Position numbers and translations under genes: made by a program. Shown here in pieces: positions 3 through 12,664 of a stretch of DNA of 64,000 bases. The notes under the pieces are model-generated. The model was not told the DNA's origin. It was given only the letters and a program-made list of their open reading frames with translations, and searched no databases. The DNA is from an uncultured Muribaculaceae bacterium (GTDB taxonomy: Bacteria; Bacteroidota; Bacteroidia; Bacteroidales; Muribaculaceae): the NCBI GenBank assembly GCA_947176745.1, contig CAMWRV010000002.1, positions 52,378 through 116,377 of the forward strand, in the 5' to 3' direction. Positions within the stretch are counted from its first letter, which is position 1, and each line of letters starts with the position of its first letter.

Positions 3-410
3 ATCAACTCACCCGGCGGTTCGGTGTACGCAGGACTCGGCATATACGACACAATGCAGTATATCAACTCCGACGTGTCTACCATATGCACCGGCATGGC
101 GGCCTCGATGGCAGCCGTCCTTCTTGTGGCAGGTGAAAGCGGCAAGCGCTTCGCGTTGCCCCATTCACGCGTGATGATCCATCAGCCCATGGGCGGCATT
201 CAGGGTCAGGCGTCGGATATCGAGATTACCGCACGCGAGATTCTGAAACTCAAATCGGAACTTTACAATATCATCTCCACTCATTCCGGCCAATCGTTTG
301 ATAAAGTCGAGGCCGACTCCGACCGCGACTACTGGATGACGGCAGCCGAGGCAAAAGAGTATGGAATGATCGACAAAGTGCTTGTAAATCCCCGCAAGGA
401 GGAAAACTGA
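3..410 (+). CDS. clpP: ATP-dependent Clp protease proteolytic subunit, 5'-truncated by window edge
   Basis: In-frame [19 protein letters not shown]...[36 protein letters not shown] is the ClpP active-site region; followed directly by clpX. Confidence 0.96.
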
Positions 411-411
411 A

Positions 412-1656
412 ATGGCAAAGAAGACAACCAAAAGATGCGTGATGTGCGGCCGTGAGGAGACAGCTGCCAATCCGGTGGTGTCGGTCTATGACCAGCTTAC
501 TATCTGTGAGGAGTGCATAGACTTCATCAACCAGATGCGCGACTCGGAGAGACTCGACCGCCGCAACGCCGGAAACAAGGACAAGGGGGGCAAAAGCATC
601 CCGACTCCGAAGAAGATACATGAGTTTCTCGACCAGTATGTAATCGGTCAGGACGAGGCGAAGAAATATCTCTCGGTGGCTGTCTACAACCACTACAAGC
701 GAATCAATCAGAATGCAGACGATGATGATGTCGATATCGAAAAGTCGAACATCATCCTCGTAGGTCCGACCGGCACGGGGAAAACCTTGCTCGCCAAGTC
801 GATAGCCCGTCTGCTTGATGTTCCGTTCACGATTGTTGACGCGACAGTGCTTACTGAAGCCGGATACGTGGGAGAAGATATCGAATCTCTGCTGACGCGG
901 CTTCTTCAGGCATGCGACTACGATGTGGAGCGCGCCGAGCGCGGCATCGTTTTCATTGATGAGATCGACAAGATCGCCCGCAAGAGCGACAATCCATCAA
1001 TTACCCGCGATGTCAGCGGCGAGGGCGTGCAGCAGGGTCTGCTGAAGCTTCTCGAAGGAAGCACCGTGCTCGTTCCGCCCAACGGTGGCCGCAAGCATCC
1101 GGAGCAGAAGATGATCGCCGTCAATACAAAAAACATCCTCTTCATCTGCGGCGGAGCGTTCGACGGCATAGAGCGAAAGATCGCATCGCGTCTCAACACG
1201 CATATGGTTGGATACGGACATGACGAGAAGTCGCGCAAACGTCAGCGAGAGAACCTGATGCGCTATGTCCTCCCGCAGGATCTCAAGTCGTTCGGTCTGA
1301 TTCCTGAGATTATCGGACGTCTCCCGATTCTGACAAGCCTTGATCCCCTTGACCGCGAGGCGCTGCGCCGCATTCTCACCGAACCGAAGAATGCCATAAC
1401 CCGCCAGTACAAGAAAATGCTCGAACTCGACGGAGTGACGCTTGAGTTTGCCGACGAGGCTCTCGATCTGATCGTCGACAAGGCCATAGAATACAAGCTC
1501 GGCGCCCGAGGTCTGCGTTCTATAGTCGAGACAGTTATGGTCGATGCCATGTACGAAGCGCCCTCTTCCGACAGCAAGAAGCTTGTGATCGATGCCGACT
1601 ATGTCCGTTCGCAACTTGAAAAGGCTCATTTCGAGAAGACCCGTATTTCCGAGTGA
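412..1656 (+). CDS. clpX: ATP-dependent Clp protease ATP-binding subunit ClpX
   Basis: N-terminal CxxC zinc finger, Walker A GPTGTGKT, Walker [35 protein letters not shown]. Confidence 0.97.
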
Positions 1657-1733
1657 TAGGGCGTCAGTGACATGCGGTCAGATTCCGCACCCATAGCCCG
1701 ACATGGAATTGACCCTGCTGAAACACGATATGC

Positions 1734-1765
1734 AGTCCGCCGCACATCAGAATGTGTGGCGGACT
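1734..1765 (+). terminator. Hairpin downstream of clpX
   Basis: AGTCCGCCGCACA...TGTGTGGCGGACT inverted repeat with one mismatch. Confidence 0.6.
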
Positions 1766-1840
1766 TGTCTATATATACGCGGCATGCGGCATGTGTCGGG
1801 CGTACAAAATGAAAAATGATTAAAAAAGATGGTCATTTTC

Positions 1841-1871
1841 TTGCATTTTTCATAAAAATAATTTAATTTTG
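1841..1871 (+). promoter_or_regulatory. Bacteroidetes-type promoter upstream of recQ
   Basis: TTG (1841-1843), N20, TAATTTTG (1864-1871), matching TTG-N19-21-TAnnTTTG. Confidence 0.55.
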
Positions 1872-1918
1872 TTAGTAAACGACACAATTGAATAATTATC
1901 TTCCCAAACCTCACTCCG

Positions 1919-4099
1919 ATGTCTGATACCGGTAAAATACTCGAAGCCCTCAAGACCCATTTCGGCTTTGATACATTCAAGGGAAACCAGCAGAAGATCA
2001 TAGAAAGTCTTCTCAGCGGGCGCGATGTCTTCGTGCTTATGCCGACCGGTGGCGGCAAGTCGCTCTGTTACCAGCTTCCTGCCCTTATGTCGGAAGGCAC
2101 GGCGATTGTCATCTCTCCGCTCATCGCCCTTATGAAGAATCAGGTAGACGCCATAAGAAGTTTCGAGGCCGAGGAGCATGTGGCTCATTTTCTGAACTCA
2201 TCGCTGTCAAGATCTGCGGCCAGGCAGGTGCGCAAGGATGTGCGCGAGGGGCGGACAAAGTTGCTTTATGTAGCTCCGGAGTCGCTCGCGAAGGGGGAGA
2301 TGGTCGAATTTCTCAAATCGATAAAGATCTCGTTTTTCGCAGTCGACGAGGCTCACTGCATCTCCGAATGGGGACACGATTTCAGGCCTGAATACCGCAA
2401 GATCAGACCGCTTATCTCGATGATCGGGGAGTTTCCGGTGATAGCGCTTACCGCTACAGCCACTCCCAAAGTGCAGCATGATATCCAGAAGAATCTCGGC
2501 ATACTCGACGCATGCGTGTTCAGATCGAGCTTTAACAGGAAGAACCTGTACTATGAGGTGCGTCCGAAGACAAAAGATGTCGACCGCGACATAATCAGAT
2601 ACATAAAGAGCAACCCCGGGCGTTCGGGCATCGTCTATTGTCTCAGCCGGCGCAAGGTCGAGGAACTTGCAGAAACTCTGCGCATAAACGGCATACAGGC
2701 GTTGCCTTACCATGCCGGCATGGACGGCGCCACCCGCTCGGCCAATCAGGACGCTTTTCTCAACGAGGACGTCGATGTGATAGTCGCCACTATAGCATTC
2801 GGCATGGGAATAGACAAACCCGACGTCAGGTACGTGCTTCATTACGACATACCCAAGAGTCTCGAAGGATACTATCAGGAGACCGGGCGCGCCGGGCGAG
2901 ACGGCGGAGAAGGTCGCTGCATCGCTTTCTACACCCGCAAGGATCTGCAGAAACTTGAGAAACTGATACAGACAAAGTCGGTCACCGAGCAGGAGATCAG
3001 CCGACAGTTGCTCATGGAAGCCGCCGACTATGCGGAGTCATCCGTGTGCCGCCGCAAGATTCTGATGCACTATTTCGGAGAATCTTACGACGATGAGAAC
3101 TGCTGTAACTGCGACAACTGTCTTAATCCGCGGAGGCGGATAGAAGCCACAGGTGAGGCGCAGACTGTCATAGAGATGGTAGATGCCGTCGGCGAGCGGT
3201 TCAGGTTGGAATATATTGTCAATATGCTGATAGGAAGGGCTACTGACGAGATCAGGGGCAACGGGCATGAGCAACTTGAACTGTTCGGAGCACTTAAGTC
3301 GATGGAGGAGAAGCTGGTGGGCATGCTTGTGCGTCAGTCAGTCATAGCCGGATTTCTTGAGAAAGATCTCGACAATTACGGAATACTGAAGGTTACGCTC
3401 GGCGGATATGAGTTCCATGAGAATCCGGTTCCCTTCTTTGTAGTGGAAGATGTGGACTATTCAGATACCGCTTCCACAGAGTCGCAGTCGTGTTATGCGG
3501 TCGGAGCACTCGATCAGGAACTCTATTCAATCCTCAAGGGGCTGCGCCGCGACGTGGCGCGAAGGGTGGGCGTGCCCCCGTATCTTGTCTTTCTTGAGGC
3601 TTCGCTTGAGGCCATGGCCACCATGTATCCTGTAACGAGCGAGGAACTGCTGACTGTGCCGGGAGTCGGAGCCGGCAAAGCGTCACGATACGGAAAGGAA
3701 TTCACCGATGTCATAGCCCGTTACGTAGAGGAAAACGAGATCGAGCGTCCTGCCGACATGCGTGTGAAACTGATGCCCAGCAGAAGCAACCGCAAGATAT
3801 CGATCATCCAGGCTATCGACCGCAAGATCGACCTTGATCAGCTTTGCGAGGGAATGGGCATGGAGTTCTCCGAATTTCTTGATGAGCTCGAGGCCATAGT
3901 CGAGGCCGGCACCAAGATAGATATCGATTATTTTATCGACGAGGTGTTTGATGAGGAGCAGGTGCAGGATATGACAGAATATTTTATGGAAAGTGCCGAC
4001 GGCGACGTCGAGACAGCCATACAGGAACTCGGTGCCGAATATGACGAGGACGATATACGCCTGCTTCGCGTCAAGTTTATATCAGATGTAGGCAACTGA
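1919..4099 (+). CDS. recQ: ATP-dependent DNA helicase RecQ
   Basis: MPTGGGKSLCYQLPAL, DEAHCISEWGHDFRPEY, QETGRAGRDG, zinc-binding cysteines and HRDC-like C-terminus. Confidence 0.95.
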   Translation: MSDTGKILEALKTHFGFDTFKGNQQKIIESLLSGRDVFVLMPTGGGKSLCYQLPALMSEGTAIVISPLIALMKNQVDAIRSFEAEEHVAHFLNSSLSRSAARQVRKDVREGRTKLLYVAPESLAKGEMVEFLKSIKISFFAVDEAHCISEWGHDFRPEYRKIRPLISMIGEFPVIALTATATPKVQHDIQKNLGILDACVFRSSFNRKNLYYEVRPKTKDVDRDIIRYIKSNPGRSGIVYCLSRRKVEELAETLRINGIQALPYHAGMDGATRSANQDAFLNEDVDVIVATIAFGMGIDKPDVRYVLHYDIPKSLEGYYQETGRAGRDGGEGRCIAFYTRKDLQKLEKLIQTKSVTEQEISRQLLMEAADYAESSVCRRKILMHYFGESYDDENCCNCDNCLNPRRRIEATGEAQTVIEMVDAVGERFRLEYIVNMLIGRATDEIRGNGHEQLELFGALKSMEEKLVGMLVRQSVIAGFLEKDLDNYGILKVTLGGYEFHENPVPFFVVEDVDYSDTASTESQSCYAVGALDQELYSILKGLRRDVARRVGVPPYLVFLEASLEAMATMYPVTSEELLTVPGVGAGKASRYGKEFTDVIARYVEENEIERPADMRVKLMPSRSNRKISIIQAIDRKIDLDQLCEGMGMEFSEFLDELEAIVEAGTKIDIDYFIDEVFDEEQVQDMTEYFMESADGDVETAIQELGAEYDEDDIRLLRVKFISDVGN

Positions 4100-4219
4100 C
4101 TGCGGCGGTATGTGATGCAATCCTGTCGCCACTACAATTTTTTAGGGTAGTATTCGTTTACAGAATTGAGAAAGACCGGCAGCCGGTCACAGACAAAAAA
4201 CTATATCCGTAAAACAGGA

Positions 4220-6396
4220 ATGAAAAAAACAGTAGCAGCCGGACTCGGAGCATGCGCGGTGGCTTTGGGCTTTGCCGCAAAAGATCCGGTGATCATGACA
4301 GTCAACGGAGTTGATGTGCCAAGATCCGAATTTGAATACCTTTACAACAAGAACAGTCAGCAGCAGATCAACCCTCAGACTCTCGAGGAATATGTCGAGA
4401 TGTTCAAGCTTTACAAGATGAAAGTGGCAGATGCCAAGGCAGAGGGAATCGACACCACAGCCGCCTTTCTCAAGGAGACGGCCCAGTATCGTCATGATCT
4501 CGCCGCTCCATATCTGACTGACTCGGTTTATATCAACCAGCTTGTAAAAGAAGCCTACGACCGTTCGCTCGAAGAGGTGGAGGCTTACCACATAATGTTG
4601 TTCAAGACACGCGACGCGGCTGCGAACGCTGCTCTCCGACAGCGTGCCGACAGTCTGAGGGATGTGCTCCGCGGAGGAGGCGATTTCACCGATCTCGCAG
4701 TCAGATACTCGCAGGACCGAGGCAGCAAGGATCGCGGCGGACGCATGGGCTGGATCGTTGCCGGCACATATCCCGCTGCATTCGAACTTGAGGCTTACAG
4801 ACTGCCCGAGGGTGCGGTTTCGGATGTTGTGGAATCCCCCGTGGGCTATCATATTCTCAAAGGCGGCAAGCATCGCAAAGCGCGTGGAAAAGTTCAGGTG
4901 TCGCATATCCTCAAGCTCACACAGGGCAAGGATGAAGCCGGCGTAGCACAGGCGAAGAAAGAGATCGACAGCCTCTACAATGTGGTGAAGGCCGCTCCCG
5001 AGACTTTCAATGCAGTGGCTACAGCCAATTCCGAAGACTGCCCGAGGGTGCGGTTTCGGATGTTGTGGAATCCCCCGTGGGCTATCATATTCTCAAAGGC
5101 GGCAAGCATCGCAAAGCGCGTGGAAAAGTTCAGGTGTCGCATATCCTCAAGCTCACACAGGGCAAGGATGAAGCCGGCGTAGCACAGGCGAAGAAAGAGA
5201 TCGACAGCCTCTACAATGTGGTGAAGGCCGCTCCCGAGACTTTCAATGCAGTGGCTACAGCCAATTCCGAAGACCGCGGTTCGGCTCGCCAGGGCGGCAT
5301 GCTCCCCTGGTTCGGCGCTGGTGAAATGGTGGCTGAGTTCGATTCAGTGGCATTCTCGCTCTCTGACGGAGAGATCAGCGAACCGGTGAAAACTGCATAT
5401 GGTTATCATATTATCCGTCGCTACGATTCGCAGGAAGTGCCGTCGCTTGAAAAGATGAAGCCGCAGGCCATAGCGAAGATCACCAATCCGCAGGATCCCA
5501 GATTCAAGCTTGTGCGCGACCGCCAGACCGCCGCATTCGCCAAGAATCACAAAGGATCTCTCAATTCGAAGACTGTGGGATTGCTTAAGGCAGACGTGGA
5601 GCGTCAGGGTCTCGATTCCCTTCTTTTTGCAAACTGGACCGCTGCTCCTTCGGCCGACATGCCCCTCGCTTCGGTAGACGGCAAGACAAAGAAAGTATCG
5701 GATTTCATGTCATCAATCAGCTACCTGCGAGTACCGGCGTCGGCAACTGCAGTCGAGATGCTTGAAGACAATCTCGATGCCTACTACAACGGACTCCTTG
5801 TGGATGCCGAAGAGCTCTCTCTTGAACAGTCCGAGCCTGATTACCGCAACCTTCTCAAGGAATACATCGACGGAAGCCTTCTTTATGAGGTCAGCGTGCG
5901 CAAGGTCTGGGACAAGGCCGCCAAAGACACCGACGGTCTCAGAAGTTTCTTCGAGCGAAACAGAGACAATTACAAATGGACCGAGCCTCATGCAAAGGGA
6001 TTCCTCGTCCAGGCGTCAAACGACTCTGTGGCGGGTCTGATACGCGAACGCGCCGCACAGCTCGCTCCCGACACACTTGTGCAGACGCTCCGAAAGGAAT
6101 TTAAAGGCAATATCGCAGTAGACAAGGTGCTTGTATCGAAAGGAACCAATGCCATGGTAGACAATATCGTGTTCGGCGCTCCTCAGGTTCAGCCTTCGAA
6201 TGCGAAATATCAGGTATATTTCATGGTCAATCCCCGTGTGCTTATGGAGCCTGAAGAGGTAGAAGACGTGAAAGGTCTCGTGACAAGCGACTATCAGAAC
6301 GAATTCCAGGCTGCCTGGGAAAATGAGCTCCGGAGCAAATATCCGGTGATTGTCAACGAGAAAGTTCTCAAACAAGTCAAGAAATCCGGAAAGTAA
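4220..6396 (+). pseudogene. Two-domain parvulin-type peptidyl-prolyl isomerase (SurA/PpiC-like) split by a frameshifting internal tandem duplication
   Basis: ORF 4166..5182 (signal peptide MKKTVAAGLGACAVALGFA from 4220, first parvulin domain) and ORF 5065..6396 (second parvulin domain and C-terminus) are separated by an exact 236-bp duplication. 2177-236=1941 nt, i.e. 647 codons, gives one continuous frame when one unit is removed. Confidence 0.85.
4799..5274 (+). repeat. Perfect direct tandem duplication, period 236 bp, with AGAC at each junction
   Basis: 4801-5036 and 5037-5272 read identical. AGAC occurs at 4799-4802, 5035-5038 and 5271-5274. Confidence 0.95.
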
Positions 6397-6416
6397 TCCG
6401 GCTCGGCATGATATGA

Positions 6417-6441
6417 GGCGACACTTCAGGCAAGTGTCGCC
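6417..6441 (+). terminator. Rho-independent terminator after parvulin gene
   Basis: GGCGACACTT-caggc-AAGTGTCGCC followed by TTTTTT. Confidence 0.85.
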
Positions 6442-6530
6442 TTTTTTCTATGCATGCGGTGCGTTAGAGCTACATTTTTTCATCTCCGGATAGCCTGAGT
6501 TAGAAGAAAAATGACTATTTTTGTAGTTAG

Positions 6531-7460
6531 ATGTGTTCTATGCGCTACATAGCGGCTTTCGCTGCCGCATGCTTGTTGGTCCAGCTTCTGTCATGCAGGT
6601 CGCAATCGGCTGACGCACAGCAGTCGGACGATGTTCTCGTGTCTGTGGGAGACTCGACTCTTACGGTGTCGGAAGTGTTGCGCAGAATCCCGGCGGGGCT
6701 GAATCCCGCAGACAGTGCCAACATGTTCGAAAGAATAGTGGGCGACTGGGTCCGCGATCTTGTGCTGATCGACGTCGCCGAGAAGAACATTCCCGATATG
6801 GACAGAATCGACCGGATGGTCGAGGCCTATAGAAACGGATTGATCGTCAGTCAATATCTTTCGACAGTGTCGGAGCGTGCGGCAGATGATGTCCCGGAAT
6901 CAAGGATAAAGCGATATTACGAGACGCATCGCGACGGTCTTGTGCTCGATCAGCCGCTTGTGAAGGGAGTATTTGTCAAGGTTGCCGCCAATGACGAGAC
7001 TCTTGACAATCTTAGAAAGTGGATGTCGCGTCTGACTGACGAGGATGTTGACAATATCGAGAAATATGGTCTGAGACAGGCTACGAGGTATGAATATTTC
7101 CGCGACGAATGGCACGAATGGAGTGTGATAGCGGAGCAGATTCCCTATCGCTTCTTTGATGCCGACGCGTTTGTCAGTTCTTCCGCTGATTTTGAGACAG
7201 AGGCCGACGGATCCGTCTATATCCTGCACATTTCGGATTATATTCCGAGTGGTAAGGAAATGCCTTATGAATTTGCAAGGCTTAAGATCCGCGAGATATT
7301 GAGAGCTACCGATGTGGCCTCTCACCGCGACAGGCTAATGGAGGACATCTACCGTGAACGCATAAGGTCAGGAGCGCTCAGACCCGGACTATACGATCCT
7401 GTGGGAAGAAAGTTCAGCAATCCTGTTGATAATAGCAAGAATAATCAAAAACAGAAATAA
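6531..7460 (+). CDS. Lipoprotein, SurA/parvulin-like family (second of three consecutive)
   Basis: Lipobox-like LLVQLLSC, then SVGDSTLTVSEVLRRIPAG and SurA-N-like helices; start may be ATG at 6540. Confidence 0.65.
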   Translation: MCSMRYIAAFAAACLLVQLLSCRSQSADAQQSDDVLVSVGDSTLTVSEVLRRIPAGLNPADSANMFERIVGDWVRDLVLIDVAEKNIPDMDRIDRMVEAYRNGLIVSQYLSTVSERAADDVPESRIKRYYETHRDGLVLDQPLVKGVFVKVAANDETLDNLRKWMSRLTDEDVDNIEKYGLRQATRYEYFRDEWHEWSVIAEQIPYRFFDADAFVSSSADFETEADGSVYILHISDYIPSGKEMPYEFARLKIREILRATDVASHRDRLMEDIYRERIRSGALRPGLYDPVGRKFSNPVDNSKNNQKQK

Positions 7461-7462
7461 AA

Positions 7463-8830
7463 GTGAAAATACGTAATCTGGTACTGCCGGTGACAATCAT
7501 GGCCGCGATATGCGCCATCGCAGCCCCTATAAAGAAGAATGTGGTCGATGAGGTGGCATGGGTAGTCGGTGACGAGCCGATATTCCGTTCCGATATTGAG
7601 GAACAGTACATGCAGGCGCGACAGGAGGGTGCGACGATCGGAGGTGACCCGTATTGTGTCATTCCGGAGCGCATAGCGGTTGAAAAACTGTTTCTTCATC
7701 AGGCCAAACTCGACACCATCGTGGCTCCTGAGGCCCAGGTGGCATCCGGAGTAGACAAGCGACTCAATTTCTTCATTGCCAATCTCGGATCCAAAGAGAA
7801 GGTAGAGGAGTATTTCCGCAAACCCCTTCCTGCGCTCAGGGAACAACTGATGGACATGATGCGCAACGGATATATCGTGGATCAGGTGCAGTCAAACCTG
7901 ACAAAAGATGTCAAGGCAACACCAAATGACGTGCGCAAATATTTTGCAGCTCTTCCCGCCGACAGTGTGCCCTATGTGCCTATGCAGGTCGAGACACAGG
8001 TCATCATGATCAATCCGCGTATACCCGAACAGGAGATCGAGGATGTAAAGGCGCGTCTGCGCGATTATGCAGACCGTGTGAACAGAGGTGAGATGCCTTT
8101 CTCGACACTCGCCATCGCATACAGCGAGGACGACGGCTCGGCGATGCAGGGTGGCGAACTCGGATTTCACGGCCGGGCCGACTGGGTGCCCGAATTCTCG
8201 CAGGTAGCGTTCAATCTCAGCGATCCCAACCGTGTGTCGCGCATCGTCGAGACAGAATATGGCTATCATATCATCCAGCTTATCGAGAAGAGGGGAGAAC
8301 AGGTCAATGTGCGTCATATCCTTCTGACTCCTAAAGTCAACAGTAAGGATCTCGCTGACGGAGTGGTGAAACTTGATTCGCTCAGAAAGGAGATCGTGGC
8401 CGGAAAGATTCCCTTCAACGAAGCGGCCCAGTGGGTGTCGCAGGATAAGGACACCAAGAACAACAACGGAGTCATGATGAACCAGAAAACCGGTTCGAGC
8501 CGGTTCGAGATGCAGGATCTTCCGCCTGAAATCGCGCGTCGTGTCGAGCTTATGCAGCCAGGCGACATATCTGAGGCCTTCATCATGAAAGACCAGCGCA
8601 AGAACCGCGATGTCATCGCTATCGTGCGCCTCACTGACCGTATCCCCGGGCACAAGGCGACACTGAGCGATGACTACAACATGATCAAGCAGATGTATGA
8701 GCAGAATGCAAAGCAGAAAATCATCAAGGAGTGGGTGGAGAAAAAAATAGGTGACACCTACACCAGAATCTCCGAGGGATGGGACGCCTGCGAGTTCGAG
8801 TACAAGGGGTGGAACAGTCAGTCGCACTGA
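7463..8830 (+). CDS. Periplasmic peptidyl-prolyl isomerase, SurA-like with two parvulin domains
   Basis: Signal peptide, VDEVAWVVGDEPIFRSDIEEQ, AYSEDDGSAMQGGELGFHGRADWVPEFSQVAFNL, EYGYHIIQLIEKRGEQVNVRHILLTP. Confidence 0.88.
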   Translation: MKIRNLVLPVTIMAAICAIAAPIKKNVVDEVAWVVGDEPIFRSDIEEQYMQARQEGATIGGDPYCVIPERIAVEKLFLHQAKLDTIVAPEAQVASGVDKRLNFFIANLGSKEKVEEYFRKPLPALREQLMDMMRNGYIVDQVQSNLTKDVKATPNDVRKYFAALPADSVPYVPMQVETQVIMINPRIPEQEIEDVKARLRDYADRVNRGEMPFSTLAIAYSEDDGSAMQGGELGFHGRADWVPEFSQVAFNLSDPNRVSRIVETEYGYHIIQLIEKRGEQVNVRHILLTPKVNSKDLADGVVKLDSLRKEIVAGKIPFNEAAQWVSQDKDTKNNNGVMMNQKTGSSRFEMQDLPPEIARRVELMQPGDISEAFIMKDQRKNRDVIAIVRLTDRIPGHKATLSDDYNMIKQMYEQNAKQKIIKEWVEKKIGDTYTRISEGWDACEFEYKGWNSQSH

Positions 8831-8862
8831 TCACGCGTTTCAGACACATGATTTGATCCGGC

Positions 8863-10734
8863 ATGAAGAGCAAAGGATTAGGTAAACCTGTATATGTGAT
8901 AGTAGTGCTGGCCGCCATTATGGTGGCCGGTTCGGTGTCTGTCATACAGAGTGCGATGGCACAGACGCGCAAGGCTGCCGCCGCCAAAAAGGAGGAGTCT
9001 TACACGCGTCCCCGTCCCACTCGTCCGATCACTCCTGCGATTCCTGATGCCGACAGGTATCAGGAAGACAAGGTGTTTCTGGAATACGCCGATTCTCTTT
9101 TCAGACCTCCCCACGGTTACGAGGAGTTTCAGGTGGTCAAAGGTTCCGTGAAATTCCGGCATGGCGGAATGTGGATGTTCTGTGACTCGGCCTATTATTA
9201 TCCTCAGAAAAACTCGATGGATGCTTTCGGCCATGTAGAGATGCGCCAGGGAGACACCCTCTTTGTATATGCCGATAAACTCTATTATGACGGTATCTCG
9301 AAGCATGCAACTCTCACTGACGGACCTTCCAGAAGCAATGTGGAGCTTAAAAACCGCAATGTGGTTCTGACTACCGACAGCCTCGACTACGACCTCAATT
9401 CGCAGATCGGATGGTATGCTGTCGGAGGTAGGCTTGAAGATGACGTGAACGTTCTTACTTCGGGATATGGCGAATATTCGCCATCATCGAAAATGGCCCG
9501 CTTCCGTGATGATGTCATACTGCTCAATACTAAAGACGGATACAGGCTTCTGACCGAAGAACTTGAATACAACACCGCCACTCACATAGCCAACATCAAC
9601 AGTCCGACACGAATAGAGGGTGCCAACGACACGATAATCACCACGCAAGGATCTTACAACACGGTGACTGACCGCGCCGATCTGACTGCCCGCTCCACAA
9701 TTCTGCACCGCGACTCTTCGATGAATGTCACGACGCTCGAAGGCGATTCGATCATATATGACAAAGCCACGCGGATAAGCCGTGCCTATATGTTCCGCGA
9801 CGGGCGTAAGCACAGCCGGCCGATGGTAATAACCGATACGGCCAGGAAAGTAATGCTCATCGGGGGTTATGGCGAGTACAATGATTCTACACAGCGTGCC
9901 ATGTCGACCGATTATCCGCTGCTAATGGAATTCTCGCGACCTGACACGATCTTCCTGCGTGCCGATACGGTTCTTTCGTTTATCGAGACCGCAGTCCCCG
10001 ATTCTCTCTCAGAAGCAAAGGATTTTCATGTGGCGCGGGCCATCGGGAAGGCGAGGTTCTTCAACGCAGACATCCAGGGAGTGGCAGACACTCTGGTCAT
10101 GCGCGAGCAGGACTCGATGCTCTACATGCTGCGCAAACCGATAGTGTGGACAGGAGAGAGGCAGATTTACGGAAACCGTATCAATGTGCATTTCAATGAT
10201 TCCGTTCCCGACTGGGCGGAACTGCCCGAATGGGGAATGGCCGCCGAGCATATAGCCGAGGATTTCTATGATCAGATGACCGGCGCACGTATGAAGGCAT
10301 GGCTTGAAGACAGCCGCCTGAAGCGGCTTGAGGTCGACGGCAACGTGATCGCCATTATGTTGCCTCAGGAAAAAGACTCTTCATACAATAAACTGGTTCA
10401 TGCGGAGAGTTCCTATCTTACACTCGACATGGACAGCAACAAGGTGAAGCATCTGAAGATGTGGCCCGAAGTCTCAGGAACAGTCACTCCGCTCTTCGAG
10501 GTTCGCAATTCGATGCAGTATATAGAGGGCTTCCGCTGGCTTGAGGCTCTAAGACCAAAGAGGGAGTGGTATGGCGACAGGGTCCGCTGGAATGACGAAC
10601 TTGGTGATGTGTCGGAAGAACTTGAGAGATATTTCTCGGAGCCTCCGCTGTTCAAGGCTATCCCTAAAGTGGCACGCGACGCGGTCAGACCCCGGAACGA
10701 AGGGGAGGGTTCCGGCCCGGCCATGAATATGTAA
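8863..10734 (+). CDS. OstA-like (LptA/LptD N-terminal fold) envelope protein
   Basis: Repeated OstA-type beta motifs (VKGSVKFRHGGMWMFCDSAYYYPQKNSMDAFGHVEMRQGDTLFVYADKLYYDG); N-terminal hydrophobic segment; between surA-like gene and mutL. Confidence 0.75.
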   Translation: MKSKGLGKPVYVIVVLAAIMVAGSVSVIQSAMAQTRKAAAAKKEESYTRPRPTRPITPAIPDADRYQEDKVFLEYADSLFRPPHGYEEFQVVKGSVKFRHGGMWMFCDSAYYYPQKNSMDAFGHVEMRQGDTLFVYADKLYYDGISKHATLTDGPSRSNVELKNRNVVLTTDSLDYDLNSQIGWYAVGGRLEDDVNVLTSGYGEYSPSSKMARFRDDVILLNTKDGYRLLTEELEYNTATHIANINSPTRIEGANDTIITTQGSYNTVTDRADLTARSTILHRDSSMNVTTLEGDSIIYDKATRISRAYMFRDGRKHSRPMVITDTARKVMLIGGYGEYNDSTQRAMSTDYPLLMEFSRPDTIFLRADTVLSFIETAVPDSLSEAKDFHVARAIGKARFFNADIQGVADTLVMREQDSMLYMLRKPIVWTGERQIYGNRINVHFNDSVPDWAELPEWGMAAEHIAEDFYDQMTGARMKAWLEDSRLKRLEVDGNVIAIMLPQEKDSSYNKLVHAESSYLTLDMDSNKVKHLKMWPEVSGTVTPLFEVRNSMQYIEGFRWLEALRPKREWYGDRVRWNDELGDVSEELERYFSEPPLFKAIPKVARDAVRPRNEGEGSGPAMNM

Positions 10735-10783
10735 GACCCCGGCGATAGTCCGGACTTGATTGACAAGCAGATTCAGAATAAGT

Positions 10784-12664
10784 ATGAGTGATATTATCAG
10801 GCTTCTGCCCGATTCCGTGGCCAACCAGATTGCGGCCGGTGAGGTGATACAGCGTCCTGCATCAGTCATAAAAGAGCTGGTGGAAAATGCTGTCGATGCC
10901 GGAGCCTCCGACATAAAGATTATCATTAAGGATGCCGGCAAGACTCTTATTCAGGTAATCGACAACGGCATAGGCATGTCAGAAACCGATGTGCGCATGG
11001 CATTCGAACGGCATGCCACATCCAAGATCAGAAATGCCGACGATCTTTTTTCACTTTCTACCATGGGTTTCAGGGGAGAGGCTCTCCCTTCTATATGCGC
11101 CATATCGGAGGTTGAGGTAAAAACGCGCCCCGAGGGGGAACAGATGGGAACTCGTCTTGTGATTCTCGGTTCAAAAGTAACCGTGCAGGAACCCTGTGTA
11201 TGCGACAAAGGCACTTCGATATCTGTGAGAAAGATTTTCTTCAACGTTCCGGCGCGGCGCAAATTCCTTAAAAGCGATACGGTCGAGCTATCAAACATCA
11301 TGAGGGAATTCGAGCGTCTGGCTCTGGTCAACAACAATATCCGGATGCATATCGACACCGGAGTCCGCAATCTTGACTTGCGCACCGCCTCCTTGCGGAT
11401 TCGTATAGAAGACATATGGAAGAACACTCTTAAGTCCGACCATCTGATACCTGTGGAGGTCGACACGTCGCTTGTAAGGATAGAGGGTTTCATATCGCGT
11501 CCGGAATTCGCAAGAAGACGAAACCCGCTCCAGTATCTGATCGTCAACGGTCGCAACATGCGTCATCCTTATTTCCACAAGGCTATCATGAGCTGCTATG
11601 ATTCGCTCATCGCCTCCGACACAATGCCTTGTTACTTTATAAAATTCTCGGTCGATCCGTCGACTATCGATGTCAATATCCATCCGACCAAGAATGAGAT
11701 CAAGTTTGAATACGAACAGCAGATATGGCCCATTCTTGTGTCGGCCATAAAGGCGGCTCTCGGCAAGTTCTCGGCAGTGCCGAGCATAGATTTTTCGGTT
11801 GATGCTATTCCTCTGCATCCGATGCGTGAAGGCGATTCGGCACCGGCTCCCCATATAGAATATCGCAACGATTACAATCCCTTTGCTTCTGCCGCGCGGG
11901 CTACGCGACAGCGTGTCGGAAGTGACTGGGAACGACTTTATGATAATTTTTCCGGGCATTCGCGTAATACGGAAAGCGCAGCCTCCCCCCATTTGCCGGA
12001 TGTCACGACAGAAGCGTCGTCCGCAGTCTCTCCCGATACGGAAGAAGACATATTCGCACTTGCCGGAGATCATGACGCTGACACGCCGCAGGTATGCATA
12101 CAGTATGCGTCGAAATATATTGTCACCACAACGCGCGACGGACTCGTGGTCATAGACCAGCACCGGGCGCATGTCAGAATACTTTACGAAGAGTATCTTG
12201 CACGCGTGGAGCGGATGGAGGTTGTGTCGCAGAGCGTCATGTTTCCGGAGACTGTATCGCTTGATGCGTCGCAGCAGGCTTCGCTCGGCGGAATAACCGA
12301 GGAATTGCATCGCCTCGGGTTTAGTCTGGAGTATGACTCCGACACGACATGGCGCATAACGGCCGTGCCCGCGCTGCCGAAGGGAACCCGCGCAGGCGAT
12401 GTGATCATGCGCATACTCGATTCTATTGCGGAAGACTCCGCCAATTATGGCAAGGAGGGTAATGTCGGTGATGCGATCGCAGGGCGAGTGGCTCTTGTCA
12501 TGGCAAGAGCGGCCGCTATACGCGGAGGCCAGCGTCTCTCTGTAACAGAAATGGAGGGTATAGTGAGTTCACTTTTCGCTCTGCCTGACCCATCGGTCAC
12601 TCCCGACGGCAATAAGGTCTACACCATCCTTGATGAATCGCGTGTGGCACGTCTGCTGACATAG
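10784..12664 (+). CDS. mutL: DNA mismatch repair protein MutL
   Basis: IRLLPDSVANQIAAGEVIQRPASVIKELVENAVDAGA, GFRGEALPSI, NVPARRKFL. Confidence 0.96.
   Translation: MSDIIRLLPDSVANQIAAGEVIQRPASVIKELVENAVDAGASDIKIIIKDAGKTLIQVIDNGIGMSETDVRMAFERHATSKIRNADDLFSLSTMGFRGEALPSICAISEVEVKTRPEGEQMGTRLVILGSKVTVQEPCVCDKGTSISVRKIFFNVPARRKFLKSDTVELSNIMREFERLALVNNNIRMHIDTGVRNLDLRTASLRIRIEDIWKNTLKSDHLIPVEVDTSLVRIEGFISRPEFARRRNPLQYLIVNGRNMRHPYFHKAIMSCYDSLIASDTMPCYFIKFSVDPSTIDVNIHPTKNEIKFEYEQQIWPILVSAIKAALGKFSAVPSIDFSVDAIPLHPMREGDSAPAPHIEYRNDYNPFASAARATRQRVGSDWERLYDNFSGHSRNTESAASPHLPDVTTEASSAVSPDTEEDIFALAGDHDADTPQVCIQYASKYIVTTTRDGLVVIDQHRAHVRILYEEYLARVERMEVVSQSVMFPETVSLDASQQASLGGITEELHRLGFSLEYDSDTTWRITAVPALPKGTRAGDVIMRILDSIAEDSANYGKEGNVGDAIAGRVALVMARAAAIRGGQRLSVTEMEGIVSSLFALPDPSVTPDGNKVYTILDESRVARLLT

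Follow-up and report, generated by a model that had tools for sequence, protein, structure and literature searches.

The window, by which is meant the whole 64,000-nucleotide stretch of DNA that was analysed, derives from contig C2 in the draft genome of a gut bacterium, an assembly of 2.55 Mb in 91 contigs with 91% completeness, and contains, in two pieces, the gene of a two-domain parvulin-type PPIase (Table 1). Rotamase domains are found in both gene halves (Rotamase_3, 107.6 and 100.9 bits, respectively, in comparison with a gathering cut-off of 22.5; Pfam), and the frame between the two is broken by a perfect head-to-tail duplication, for which Tandem Repeats Finder and a base-by-base comparison give a period of 236, two copies, 100% matches and no indels. 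The base-by-base comparison counts 240 identical bases, i.e. the unit of 236 and a further 4. The first-pass annotation had described the same identical repeat in a different register (4801-5036 and 5037-5272), with AGAC at its start, middle and end, and this description is confirmed. Also correct were the two ORFs that it delimited (4166-5182 and 5065-6396), the GTG start of the latter within copy 2 and the absence of a signal peptide from this C-terminal ORF. The upstream ORF as annotated begins at TTG 4166, while the natural start of this fragment is probably ATG 4220. As 236 is not a multiple of 3, the duplication frameshifts the gene, and with one unit removed the two halves fall into a single frame of 647 codons including the stop (646 aa), as had been proposed and as was verified base by base. 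A duplication of this length and exactness is far beyond chance; random breakpoints would share 4 bp or more, as the AGAC-flanked ones do, with a chance of about 1.9%.

The gene order in the region of the window from 24 to 12664 is clpP/clpX-like, recQ-like, the split parvulin PPIase gene, an ORF at 6531-7460, a SurA-like PPIase gene at 7463-8830 (Pfam), an OstA-like gene at 8863-10734 and a mutL-like gene, where the names of genes other than the PPIases come from reading the translations. This region is apparently an envelope-biogenesis cluster. The ORF at 6531-7460, situated between the two PPIase genes, comprises 309 aa with a signal-peptide or lipoprotein-like N-terminus; it has no Pfam match at 0.001 and possibly represents a diverged SurA-like protein.

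Table 1. Features of the split parvulin gene in the window and exact head-to-tail duplications found across the draft genome.
Feature	Position	Strand	Unit (bp)	Junction microhomology	Effect on frame	Basis
Upstream fragment of parvulin-type PPIase gene, with an N-terminus resembling a signal peptide, parvulin domain 1 and a tail out of frame	4220..5182	+
Downstream fragment of parvulin-type PPIase gene, with parvulin domain 2 and the C-terminus; lacks a signal peptide; GTG/ATG starts all internal	5065..6396	+
Unit 1 of perfect duplication	4799..5034	+	236			Tandem Repeats Finder, base-by-base comparison
Unit 2 of perfect duplication, followed by AGAC at 5271-5274	5035..5270	+	236			Tandem Repeats Finder, base-by-base comparison
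AGAC microhomology	left end 4799-4802; junction 5035-5038; right end 5271-5274	+				base-by-base comparison
Duplication in parvulin gene	C2, window 4799-5274		236	AGAC	frameshift
Duplication in OlsH/GH3-like lyso-ornithine lipid synthetase gene	C6 near 52.3 kb (L099 12324-12821)		248	CC	frameshift
Duplication in primase-like ORF	C7 near 58.3 kb (L100 18288-18726)		218	ATC	frameshift
Duplication in thrS	C17 about 31.2-32.0 kb (L125 11238-11992)		376	GTT	frameshift
Duplication in M24 peptidase gene	C23 near 14.8 kb (L133 14796-15085)		144	AG	in frame
Duplication in gldL	C24 near 9.1 kb (L134 9078-9490)		204	GATCA	in frame

The parvulin gene was matched by DNA in 54 of 60 other genomes of the genus, and in every one of the 29 relative loci examined it forms one ORF with one unit, collinear with both halves of the split gene and 644-681 aa in length where the end of the ORF falls inside the stretch. 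No second 236-bp unit is present in any of these 29 same-genus orthologous loci. The comparison with sister strains suggested in the first-pass annotation is in effect a comparison with other species, since the nearest relative at the locus has ~73% DNA identity (76%/60% for the protein); a scan of genome contigs returned no same-species record (the best relative showing 63% aa identity), and among named records Muribaculaceae gut MAGs come closest. Because the relatives are single-unit at this locus, the duplication is derived and, to date, known from this assembly only, and an ancestral or shared duplication is rejected.

The genome assembly itself contains the two units, and the window is free of N, but a sequence that occurs in an assembly need not occur in the cell. 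An exact-repeat scan of sampled stretches, covering 1.631 Mb of the 2.55-Mb draft genome, found six head-to-tail duplications that are exact and have units of at least 100 bp, short-period tracts aside (Table 1); no units shorter than 144 bp were seen in this 1.631 Mb apart from simple repeats. The genes that contain them are unrelated (the names thrS, OlsH and GldL derive from NCBIfam, the M24 label from sub-threshold NCBIfam matches, and the primase-like label from a reading of the translation, which has no family match), and the GldL protein, with its 204-bp duplication, reaches 412 aa versus mostly about 300-350 in same-genus relatives. The unit lengths modulo 3 are 2, 2, 2, 1, 0 and 0, the frame thus being broken in four of only six cases, as expected without selection. 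All six duplications have junction microhomology, of 4, 2, 3, 3, 2 and 5 bp, respectively, and in simulation the chance that all would be at least 2 bp is about 2e-5. One kind of event made all six duplications, and the duplication in the parvulin gene must therefore be judged together with the other five.

The most telling of these loci is thrS, which a duplication of 376 bp frameshifts: the single threonyl-tRNA synthetase gene found in the draft genome is present in two pieces, and no second thrS was found in this draft. Among 40 other genomes, 37 have a thrS above the family cut-off, nearly all as a single ORF of about 650-670 aa. Threonyl-tRNA synthetase is essential, and because the split gene is the sole one found, living cells could hardly carry its duplication in fixed form. 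The split gene does have internal ATG/GTG codons downstream, and a 5'-truncated thrS might still be partly active.

These observations bear directly on the possibility that the parvulin gene has recently suffered a loss of function that is fixed in the strain, with two units in all cells. Such an event would agree with the two uninterrupted units of the assembly, and its consequences could be buffered by the neighbouring SurA-like gene. It is nevertheless quite improbable in view of the five other duplications, which are identical in character and one of which would break the sole thrS found, and of the single unit retained in all relatives checked; furthermore, an exact tandem repeat of 240 bp is unstable and should readily collapse.

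The first-pass annotation had offered three interpretations, namely a reversible ON/OFF switch of an envelope chaperone, a fresh loss of function and an assembly artefact, of which the last is favoured as the most likely by the six duplications and the interrupted sole thrS, and the first is left without support. A switch that works by gaining and losing the 236-bp unit would be comparable with the capsule phase variation of Streptococcus pneumoniae, which, in the account given by the citing article, stems from perfect frame-shifting tandem duplications within ORFs of the type 3 capsule locus, cap8E and tts that the loss of a single unit could undo (Waite et al., 2001, 2003, cited in PMC4022640). 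The anatomy of the parvulin duplication, which is exact, intragenic, not a multiple of 3 and reparable by loss of one unit, indeed resembles these cases. However, the pneumococcal duplications, as described there, accompany a phenotype (acapsular variants in culture), whereas the parvulin locus is known from an assembly only and shows no locus specificity. The 29 single-unit relatives provide no second example at this locus, the same pattern is shown by unrelated housekeeping genes of the same draft genome, thrS included, rather than keeping to a contingency gene or recurring there, and AGAC is only a 4-bp homology, so that nothing predisposes the site. A switch is consequently regarded as highly improbable. 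Little literature on internal duplications in phase variation was found.

In contrast to the six cases in this genome, no such exact head-to-tail duplications were detected in the controls, which comprised stretches from 26 relatives (1.12 Mb), named loci deriving partly from those genomes (0.18 Mb) and part of the finished genome of E. coli K-12 MG1655 (0.45 Mb). The repeats seen in E. coli were confined to Rhs-associated, H-repeat and tRNA repeats. At equal rates, the probability that all six would fall in this genome is about 0.01 (0.012) against all controls and 0.03-0.04 against the relatives alone, whose assemblies stem from various pipelines and are hence an imperfect control. The excess is accordingly moderate evidence, not proof.

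The contigs also carry a signature of the way in which they were assembled. Exactly 55 bases are common to the starts of several contigs and to other contigs or internal sites (C1, C13, C15, C20/C37, C28/C36 and others; L044, L110, L112, L130/L147, L138/L146), which indicates a de Bruijn assembly with k=55, and 55 is the largest default k of metaSPAdes. In a graph of this kind, a repeat unit longer than 55 bp is a loop whose copy number is guessed. All six units (144-376 bp) exceed k; they would lie between the typical short-read length and the insert size, where neither reads nor k-mers would fix the copy number.

The 236-bp duplication most likely represents an artefact of the assembly or the library (or a rare variant) rather than a genetic switch, and we assign a probability of roughly 0.7 to the reading that the duplication does not reflect the state of the resident chromosome, where the gene would be intact with one unit. 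According to this model, a few sequenced molecules would have carried a junction in which the end of the 236-bp stretch was joined to its start via AGAC, and these molecules could be library chimeras produced by annealing or template switching at short homology. In the k=55 graph the AGAC junction would close a loop longer than k, which the assembler would have traversed twice in producing the contig sequence. In that case the true gene would contain one unit and encode an intact, exported two-domain parvulin PPIase of 646 aa. That the junctions were present in sequenced molecules is most likely, because homologies of 2-5 bp argue against blunt joins of contig ends and against k-mer mis-joins. 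Thus, a blunt mis-join of overlapping contig ends or a scaffold gap is disfavoured by the short homology at 6/6 junctions and the absence of N from the window, and a k-mer mis-join is excluded by junction homologies far below 55. Homologous recombination between the two parvulin domains was also considered and is rejected, as the breakpoints are non-equivalent (between EAYR and LPEG in domain 1, between NSED and RGSA in domain 2) and have only AGAC in common.

An artefact would be expected to recur at unrelated loci of one assembly, to strike genes that should not be dispensable, to have unit lengths free of reading-frame selection and to leave a k-mer graph signature with units longer than k. 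This is what is observed, with six occurrences in 1.63 Mb, a frameshift in the sole thrS found, 4/6 units that are not a multiple of 3 (in only six cases) and exact 55-base overlaps alongside units of 144-376 bp. De Bruijn graphs of metagenomes have been described as ‘riddled with spurious cycles’ (PMC9104695), and microhomology-induced chimeric reads (PMC8674242) could close such loops. The present case resembles them in its exact unit longer than k, in contig-end overlaps of exactly k=55, in its short junction homology, in a scatter regardless of gene function and in a copy number that the graph leaves undecided. It differs in that loop traversal is here something that we infer rather than see directly, and in that the library chimeras documented to form via short homologies came from FFPE samples (PMC8674242). 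Little literature on short loops in metaSPAdes was found.

An excess of microhomology is equally expected of real microhomology-mediated tandem duplications (MTDs). If these arose chromosome-wide at low frequency in the gut population concerned and reverted easily, the assembler could have taken loops of minor variants into the consensus, with most cells retaining one unit. Homology of 2-5 bp at all six junctions, exceeding that of random joins, would fit such subclonal events, as would the fact that genes are struck irrespective of function, in the manner of mutational input, and spontaneous rearrangements are frequent in Salmonella cultures (PMC3411829). There is also a precedent in fission yeast, for which the citing article mentions reversible MTDs in coding sequence (cited in PMC13207564); as in those cases, the segments described here are bounded by short direct homology that is preserved at either end and also at the junction (AGAC at the parvulin gene, 2-5 bp at all six loci). 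The yeast duplications, as presented there, were shown to be subclonal and reversible, whereas the bacterium is known from a draft assembly alone. In Salmonella chemostat cultures, moreover, spontaneous duplications were confirmed only with junction homologies of 11 bp or more, the candidates of 7 and 9 bp having failed when tested (PMC3411829); the 2-5 bp found here lie below this range, which favours chimeras. Slippage would be expected to yield mostly short units, in contrast to the lower limit of 144 bp seen apart from simple repeats, and the relatives' sampled assemblies contain no such duplications. Real but subclonal duplication, the principal competing explanation, is on balance possible but unlikely, and the artefact remains the preferred explanation.

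As the parvulin locus illustrates, a striking finding at one locus of a draft genome may be a single member of a family of assembly-level events; the remainder of the genome should be searched for similar cases before a perfect frame-breaking duplication in a draft assembly is called a mutation or a switch. It is unlikely that natural populations of gut Bacteroidales generate microhomology-mediated tandem duplications of 150-400 bp continuously and throughout the genome, frequently enough for these to surface in consensus assemblies. If this does happen, such duplications would amount to pervasive reversible gene inactivation in bacteria, similar to that which the citing article reports for fission yeast (PMC13207564). 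Should the junction molecules be real, the frequency of reversible microhomology-mediated duplication in gut bacteria could be tested directly at these six loci.
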